The translations under genes were made by a program, and so were the position numbers. The notes beneath the pieces were generated by a model. The model did not search any database, had not been told where the DNA came from, and was given only the letters and a program-made list of their open reading frames with translations. 64,000 nt of DNA from Halonotius pteroides (lineage in GTDB: Archaea; Halobacteriota; Halobacteria; Halobacteriales; Haloferacaceae), in contig NZ_QMDW01000003.1 in the NCBI RefSeq assembly GCF_003605635.1, positions 1 to 64,000 of the forward strand, read 5' to 3'. This document shows, piece after piece, positions 8,732 to 17,880 of the stretch (position 1 is the first letter of the stretch; the number at the start of each line of letters is the position of its first letter).

Positions 8732-8782
8732 CAGGCGTGGCGGTCGGTACTGTTCGGGATAGTGCGATTAGACTGAGCACAC

Positions 8783-9012
8783 CTCGAAAGCCCCCGGCCC
8801 CTTTCAGTCCCACCCGACTGCGGCTGCTTGGCCCGCTGACGCGGGTGGGACTGAAAGGGGCGACGCGCTGGAGGAAGGCGGGCGTTCACGAGAGCAAGCT
8901 CTCGTGAGCCAACCAGAAATCTCTGATTTCTGGTGACGACGCAAGCACTGCAGGGCCGAAGGCCTGAAGCGCGCAGCGAGCCCCCCGACTCCAGGGCGTC
9001 GGGGCTTTCGAG
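8783..9012 (+). ncRNA. Nested inverted-repeat element, candidate structured RNA or MITE
   Basis: Non-coding stretch between two plus-strand genes, bounded by a perfect 12-bp inverted repeat (CTCGAAAGCCCC at 8783-8794, GGGGCTTTCGAG at 9001-9012). Inside are three perfect hairpins: a 19-bp stem (8798-8816 with 8842-8860), a 10-bp stem (8886-8895 with 8898-8907) and a 10-bp stem (8912-8921 with 8925-8934). The 3' end (CCCCCGACT...GGGCGTCGGGGCTTTCGAG) looks like a closing stem. A related sequence lies at 17695-17880 on the other strand. It could be a transcribed structured RNA, a non-autonomous mobile element or the 3' relic of an IS200/IS605-type insertion. Strand is assigned from the order of the shared core. 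Confidence 0.55.
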
Positions 9013-9091
9013 ATGGTTCCAATTTCATCGACTTCTCTGAACACGACTTAGCGGTCGCCGAGACGTTTTTTGATTCGTCCCACCCAGTAGT

Positions 9092-17616: not shown

Positions 17617-17694
17617 ACCCTCACTCGGTGGTCGAGGGAATTAATGGTCGGGGATCGTTTACTAGATCGCACATTTTTCAGGAGAATCGGTGTA

Positions 17695-17880
17695 GAAAGC
17701 CCTCGACGCGCTCGACTCCCGCGGCTCGCTGTGCTCCTCGTCACTCGCTTCGCTCGTTCCTACGGTGCTTACGTCGCCGTGGTTCGTCGAGCGCATCTCG
17801 CCCTTTCAGTCCGCCAGGACGTGGTTTGGTCGGTCAGCCGACCCAGCTGCTTGGCTGCTTGTTTCTACAGGCGGATTACT
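17695..17880 (-). ncRNA. Second copy of the GGACTGAAAGGG structured element
   Basis: Non-coding sequence in the 272-nt gap between nnr and the SNF transporter. Read on the minus strand it has GGCGGACTGAAAGGGCGA, GCGCTCGA, GACGTAAGCACCGTAGG, CACAGCGAGCC and GTCGAGGGCTTTC, the same words in the same order as 8842-9010. A perfect hairpin GGTCGG-CTGA-CCGACC lies in the 5' part (about 17836-17851), and GGCGGA/TCCGCC (17870-17875 with 17810-17815) can close it. The two internal hairpins of the first copy are replaced by other sequence. Family membership is read directly; function is not known. Confidence 0.5.

Follow-up and report, generated by a model that had tools for sequence, protein, structure and literature searches.

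A probable family of short haloarchaeal mobile elements carrying a structured RNA-like module

What kind of sequence is the repeat lying between a sodium:neurotransmitter symporter (SNF) gene and an NAD(P)HX epimerase/dehydratase gene in Halonotius pteroides? The window analysed here, the first 64,000 nucleotides of contig NZ_QMDW01000003.1 (assembly GCF_003605635.1), holds one copy on the minus strand at 17812-17695 and another on the plus strand at 8848-9009. A first-pass annotation of the letters alone had named several strings shared by both, and all of them are present in the same order. Aligned locally, the two copies score 53.5, above every one of 1000 dinucleotide shuffles (mean 22.2, maximum 42.0) and above the best of 906 other 126-nt stretches of the window (34.5), in agreement with the kinship proposed there. 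The same annotation had defined a family around the 11-mer GGACTGAAAGGG. Within the window this string matches three times against an expectation of 1.07, a number reached by 11 of 100 shuffles and thus barely above chance; it is therefore the genome-wide data that carry the family claim, with 15 exact copies in the 3.0 Mb genome and 0 in the reversed control.

The spread of the family was followed with two covariance models, R1, built from eight Halonotius copies of the window genome (G000), and R2, built from 53 R1 matches; the matches of training members prove nothing because they were used in training, and the class-wide and phylum results are independent of them. Far from recovering only the two window sequences, the outcome that the annotation had set against its own reading, R1 finds 16 places in the window genome at E 0.1 or better and has matches in 27 of 40 relatives. 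Copy numbers differ sharply among close species: at least 91 in Halonotius roseus (G002), a lower bound as the count equals the candidates scored, 45 in H. terrestris (G004) and 15 in H. aquaticus (G003). Under stricter filters, with at most nine candidates scored per genome, R2 matches 329 of 391 Halobacteria genomes and 75 of 86 genera, which bears out the annotation's mention of similar strings in other haloarchaea. In a draw across the phylum, 68 of 392 genomes match, every one from the own genus, the same family or the same order; among the rows listed there is no match outside the order, with none in 7 rows of the same phylum or in 13 of the same family or order, and the 304 further non-matching genomes are not itemised by taxon.

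A pattern search of contigs points to the same group of organisms, since 118 of the 120 matches listed are haloarchaeal by title. The other two, bacterial contigs L209 and L215, are not credible by the model (E 0.29 and no match, respectively). Fourteen haloarchaeal plasmids match, 12 of them without an annotated feature at that place, one in an unannotated record and one over a hypothetical protein. Carriage as phage cargo was also considered and rejected: annotated phages gave no match, and only one of three IMG/VR pattern matches scores with the model. The module on that contig, at L251:6910-7012, has an E of 4.8e-9, and viruses or proviruses may therefore be among the carriers of the element. 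A tRNA or other known Rfam RNA can be set aside as well. Rfam 15 gave 0 matches in the window, none up to E 5 at the 17695-17820 module, and only five in 11 relatives, all far below gathering scores; nothing scored at or above a gathering threshold. The module is absent from Rfam 15 and nothing matched it credibly; it resembles the structured RNA families collected there in its consensus fold and compensatory changes but differs in lacking such a match. No description of it was found in the open-access literature searched, including the available portions of PMC3119063, PMC5892119 and PMC2864571.

The annotation had also described a conserved frame with variable inserts, and this corresponds to a hairpin module into which optional side hairpins are set at fixed positions. 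When 15 distinct copies of the window genome were folded, 10 shared a long-hairpin frame as their minimum-energy fold (one of them with a mutated P1); two copies with large inserts (L002 and L004) fold differently in the outer part, and three are without the inner part (two of 25 nt and one of 46 nt). From outside inward, the module consists of a 5' GG-N-GG tract, helix P1 (GAAAG/CTTTC), an internal loop, helix P2 and an inner domain. The internal loop is a symmetric GG/GG in one type of module, A (GGGCGAG...CGAGGGC), and a symmetric GGG/GGG in the other, B (GGGGC...GGGGC). P2 spans about 12 bp and is nearly unconstrained in sequence, and the inner domain, conserved as GGACGACGYAAGCAC...GAGCGCAGCGAGTCC, contains small internal loops rich in purines. 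The points at which side hairpins enter are fixed: the pair hpA/hpB precedes GACGACGCAAGC, another follows GCAGCGAG, and a third pair precedes the P2 3' strand.

In the window, the A-type structured RNA-like module occupies 17695..17820 on the minus strand (138.3 bits, E 2.9e-31 with R1, of which it is a training sequence) and has a fold z-score of -3.68. Its P1 5' strand GAAAG (17803..17807) pairs with CTTTC at 17695-17699, and its sequence-variable, 12-bp P2 5' strand (17786..17797) pairs with 17705-17716, where an inverted repeat was found; the P1 and P2 3' strands with their GGG tract fill 17695..17716, as indicated by both covariation and the inverted repeat. Two limits of the first description need correction here. 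The conserved part takes in the G-tract pair GG-C-GG directly 5' (17811..17815, minus strand), whose upstream positions are G class-wide, and similarity across the family extends over about 17689-17866. The latter falls inside a decayed A-type MITE-like element at 17672..17869 on the minus strand, whose end at 17869-17857 (TGTAGAAACAAGC) resembles GTGTTCAGATAC and whose other end, at 17683-17672, resembles TATCTGAACAC, both assigned by eye against the copies L022, L082 and L059.

A third correction concerns the 8842 copy, which is one arm of a divergent pair. The 304-bp B-type MITE-like element 8747..9050 holds two divergent modules, with no strand of its own, between the inverted ends GTACTGTTCGGGATAG ... 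CTCTGAACACGACT; its outer arms (8765-8794 and 9001-9030) are 73% complementary, and it is flanked by a target duplication GCGGTCG at 8740..8746 and 9051..9057 (plus strand). One arm is minimal, GGGACTGAAAGGGGCCGGGGGCTTTCGAG at 8784..8816 on the minus strand, and the other is a full module at 8842..9009 on the plus strand, 162 nt from GGACTG, matched by R1 at E 1.8e-9 without being among its training sequences and with a fold z-score of -4.91. This full arm contains hpA (8885..8908, plus strand) and hpB (8912..8934, plus strand), a pair with similar counterparts at the same point in copies of the window genome, H. roseus and H. aquaticus. The double hairpin, with varied loops, is seen at this one fixed point at 8885-8934 of the window and at C1:997854, C1:1043984 and C2:716015 of H. 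roseus, and it behaves like an optional side domain.

The evidence that the module is selected for its fold comes from compensatory changes. Among 100 class-wide sequences, 95.9% of the cells are paired (99.8% in P1), with 744 double-side changes against 206 in shuffled alignments and a covariation score of 0.549 against 0.138 shuffled and at most 0.064 with slid partners, a value reached in 0 of 500 shuffles; double-side changes occur in 12 of the 13 pairs of P2. A set of 51 distinct, Halonotius-led sequences gives a similar picture (97.3% paired; 297 double changes against 71 shuffled; score 0.492 against 0.138). The departures from Watson-Crick pairing are themselves biased, with G-U to A-C ratios of 108:18 and 54:5 in the model alignments and 55:8 (p 1e-9) in a model-free count of the main stem P2, for which sequence alone served to anchor the arms of 165 of 169 distinct elements and the count was confined to the inside of the helix, four elements being dropped for poor pairing and the arm register picked by Watson-Crick count. 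If a palindrome were selected or repaired as a DNA duplex, G-T and A-C should be retained equally, and the G-U excess therefore indicates selection for folding on one strand; in 120 of 153 cases, folding is better for the sense strand than for the antisense. The module thus combines compensatory changes beyond shuffled controls with selection on one strand, in which G-U is kept and A-C is not. RNA would most simply account for that strand, though a G-T bias would also suit a single DNA strand.

The G tracts lie outside these helices and follow a pattern of their own. Across the class (115 modules), G makes up 98-100% at positions -1, -2 and -5, and past -8 the conservation tails off. Tract lengths correlate: 2+2 goes with 3 and 3 in 49 modules, 3+3 or 4+3 goes with 4 and at least 4 in 48, and the remaining 18 are mixed or unclassified, mostly 3+2. 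A second scoring left out 12 of 100 rows whose tracts were unclear and counted 31 modules as all short, 50 as all long and 7 as mixed (n=88). It is conceivable, if doubtful, that the two 5' tracts, spaced by a single nucleotide (GG-N-GG or GGG-N-GGG), dock on the GG/GG or GGG/GGG internal loop, which separates P1 from P2, and form a G-quadruplex with it in the hairpin base, and the same tentative proposal would give it two layers in the A type and three in the B type. Matched tract lengths fit such layers, yet two old subtypes would give the same picture, and the inner-domain tree carries little signal on the matter (20 changes of G-tract type against 23-31 in shuffled trees, just 2 supported independent pairs). 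Haloarchaeal cells contain potassium at molar concentration, in which such a quadruplex, if it exists, would be highly stable, and it would be a natural counterpart of quadruplex-duplex aptamers selected in vitro. A G-rich stretch that starts GGCTGGGGAGG, with TGCGGT-like units, lies directly upstream of the module in Halosimplex and others (L129, L140, L229, L048 and L049), and may be an extra domain.

In Halonotius, elements with GTGTTCAGATA-type inverted ends enclose either a single module (A) or two divergent ones (B). Two-ended A-type elements of H. roseus measure 208-258 bp in five of six cases and 371 in the other, B-type elements measure 293-510 bp, and neither type contains a transposase gene. 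Both ends are retained in 6 of 49 A-type copies in a strict scan, and exact TGTTCA/TGAACA at both ends was found in 9 of 149 copies of a wider set (1 in the reversed control); with so few copies keeping both exact ends, the MITE carrier is demonstrated for Halonotius and a few others rather than for the whole family. Target duplications of 8 bp (7/8 or better) flank 9 of 14 two-ended elements, against 4.6% of mispaired flanks. H. roseus also has an insertion sequence with GTGTTCAGATAAG ends like those of the elements, whose protein matches DDE_Tnp_IS240 and which we take to belong to the IS6 group. Transposition of IS6 elements produces 8-bp target duplications. Judging from the common end sequences and a few copies of the insertion sequence, this transposase may be the one that acts on the elements.

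Empty sites complete the picture of a mobile element and were found in H. aquaticus, H. pteroides, H. roseus and H. terrestris. Along the syntenic contigs C50 of the window genome, C16 of H. aquaticus and C3 of H. roseus, the site of the 8747-9050 pair is cleanly empty in H. aquaticus and the pair is present in H. roseus; conversely, the H. roseus pairs near 122.9k, 300.7k and 337.4k of C3 have no counterparts in H. pteroides, and the last two have none in H. aquaticus either. An A-type copy (L018) and a relic (L003) are missing in H. roseus, and the copy at hisG is missing in H. terrestris. Fourteen of the 16 sites of the window genome could be placed in H. roseus, 12 with an element and 2 empty, and 2 were not found. 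The carrier is thus short, devoid of a transposase gene and bounded by inverted ends shared with an insertion sequence, with target duplications and empty sites. The module does lie inside a MITE, and its covarying fold would function as RNA; of the two natures between which the annotation had hesitated, structured RNA or mobile element backbone, both apply to an RNA-like module within MITE-like elements.

Comparison of orthologous sites reveals what happens after insertion. The A-type module at 17695-17812 is an old copy, found at the same place in H. aquaticus and H. roseus, with decayed MITE ends; in H. roseus it has gained a side hairpin and adjoins an insertion sequence. It is not at nnrD in G001 or H. 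terrestris, where the upstream sequence differs. Over eight orthologous comparisons at six sites, module identity is 0.78-0.97 while the MITE arms mostly stand at 0.59-0.76 (two 3' arms reach 0.85 and 0.97). The ortholog ranks 1, 1 and 4 among the H. roseus modules in three comparisons and 22-33 in the other five, which implies that modules are also swapped between copies, and copy-to-copy conversion could be part of the module's conservation. At two sites an A-type element in one species is replaced by a B pair in another, one of these being a hybrid of both types (L030 and L020 against C1:795439-795923 and C2:314204-314579 of H. roseus, where an A single, a B pair or a hybrid is found according to the species of Halonotius). 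These changes look as if whole elements had been exchanged in place, and comparable 'switch repeats' are mentioned for Haloquadratum in the available text of PMC3119063. At hisG, the stems of H. pteroides and H. roseus differ by matched changes in both arms (GGTTCTC/GAGAACC against GGCACTC/GAGTGCC). The H. pteroides element upstream of this gene (L019/L354) lies between the arms of an inverted repeat, CTCCGCTA...TAGCGGAG, of which H. terrestris has the intact form, so the insertion may have struck a terminator-like hairpin.

The gene context bears on what such a module could do. All four neighbour orientations occur, with a slight sense bias (28:15 in H. roseus and 26:19 class-wide); the gene caller lays spurious ORFs over the elements, for which reason these orientation counts are rough and the intergenic fraction (39 of 78 modules in H. 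roseus, with 33 of 82 overlapping an ORF class-wide) was not used. Among seven hisG loci outside H. pteroides and H. roseus, the flanks examined contain a module only in H. aquaticus, and among seven loci of a hef-like helicase only those of H. aquaticus and H. terrestris have one. The varied gene positions, together with two tested sites that are not kept past the genus, make a role in one pathway unlikely. A leader or terminator acting in cis on particular genes, to which the sense bias and the 12 of 14 plasmid matches free of annotated features would lend themselves, was rejected on these orientations and sites and is very unlikely. The window genome has 31 TnpB zinc-ribbon matches, against 2 in each of its congeners H. 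roseus and H. aquaticus. Module matches in these three genomes number 16, at least 91 and 15, so that module copy number bears no relation to TnpB. The annotation's suggestion that copies flank TnpB genes therefore failed, unlike its RNA or mobile frame and its proposed haloarchaeal spread, and an omega-RNA or IS605/TnpB remnant, attractive as a structured RNA in a mobile element, is rejected on these counts as scarcely credible.

Two further explanations dispense with RNA. In the first, the hairpin would act at the DNA level: a transposase would recognise it on one particular single strand, in the manner of IS200/IS605, REP or the PATEs of Haloquadratum; the strand bias does not in itself distinguish RNA from one DNA strand, and the modules are, like PATEs in the available text of PMC3119063, repeats with palindromes. 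The carriers, however, have terminal inverted repeats and 8-bp duplications, neither of which is described for PATEs in that portion of the survey, the matching transposase is of the DDE type, and TnpB genes are few in the copy-rich H. roseus, all of which renders this reading unlikely. Somewhat less likely still is a plain MITE whose palindrome is kept by template switching from arm to arm and by gene conversion, with no selection on RNA. Module swaps, A/B switches at orthologous sites and the joint change of both arms would suit it, but strand-symmetric correction would give equal G-T and A-C instead of the observed 55:8, and the G-tract positions outside the helices are conserved class-wide.

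Among known systems, bacterial repeats of the ERIC or REP type are intergenic imperfect palindromes of about 120 bp; they are present in tens of copies, and some of them carry inserts at set positions. The present elements recall them as dispersed intergenic palindromes with fixed-point inserts, but they belong to archaea, another domain of life, and their arms covary class-wide with a strand bias. The nearest published description is a survey of Haloquadratum walsbyi (PMC3119063) that covers its MITEs, PATEs and small mobile repeats. As far as its available text goes, the MITEs described there are likewise short and free of transposase genes, share terminal inverted repeats with insertion sequences, produce target duplications, leave empty sites between close strains and switch at one site; the elements reported here differ in bearing one or two class-wide covarying, strand-specific structured modules with optional side hairpins. 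With PATEs and IS605-type elements, in the same portion of the source, they share palindromes, the lack of a transposase gene and abundance in haloarchaea, but they have the inverted ends and duplications that those are described without, and TnpB is not associated.

Taken as a whole, the evidence makes it probable that these are short non-autonomous mobile elements of one family, spread through the haloarchaea, that carry a structured RNA module as cargo. Most likely, each is a MITE whose transcript would fold into a protein-binding or transcript-stabilising structure, the mobility being shown and the action of the RNA proposed. A DDE transposase of the IS240/IS6 kind with the same ends would mobilise the elements in trans, and the module, for which no promoter was recognised by eye, would be copied into RNA by read-through from adjoining genes. 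The folded RNA, with its conserved internal loops and G tracts, may then bind a host factor, or end or protect transcripts. Such an action would make intergenic insertions tolerable and keep the module intact while the MITE arms decay, and copies would trade modules through recombination. If the G tracts fold as proposed, the module would be a natural quadruplex-in-duplex RNA from high-potassium cells. If the explanation as a whole is right, small transposons have spread an unrecognised structured RNA to most haloarchaeal genomes, each with one to about ninety copies, and this would offer transcriptome studies of haloarchaea a ready family to seek and would constitute a case of RNA structure under selection inside a MITE.
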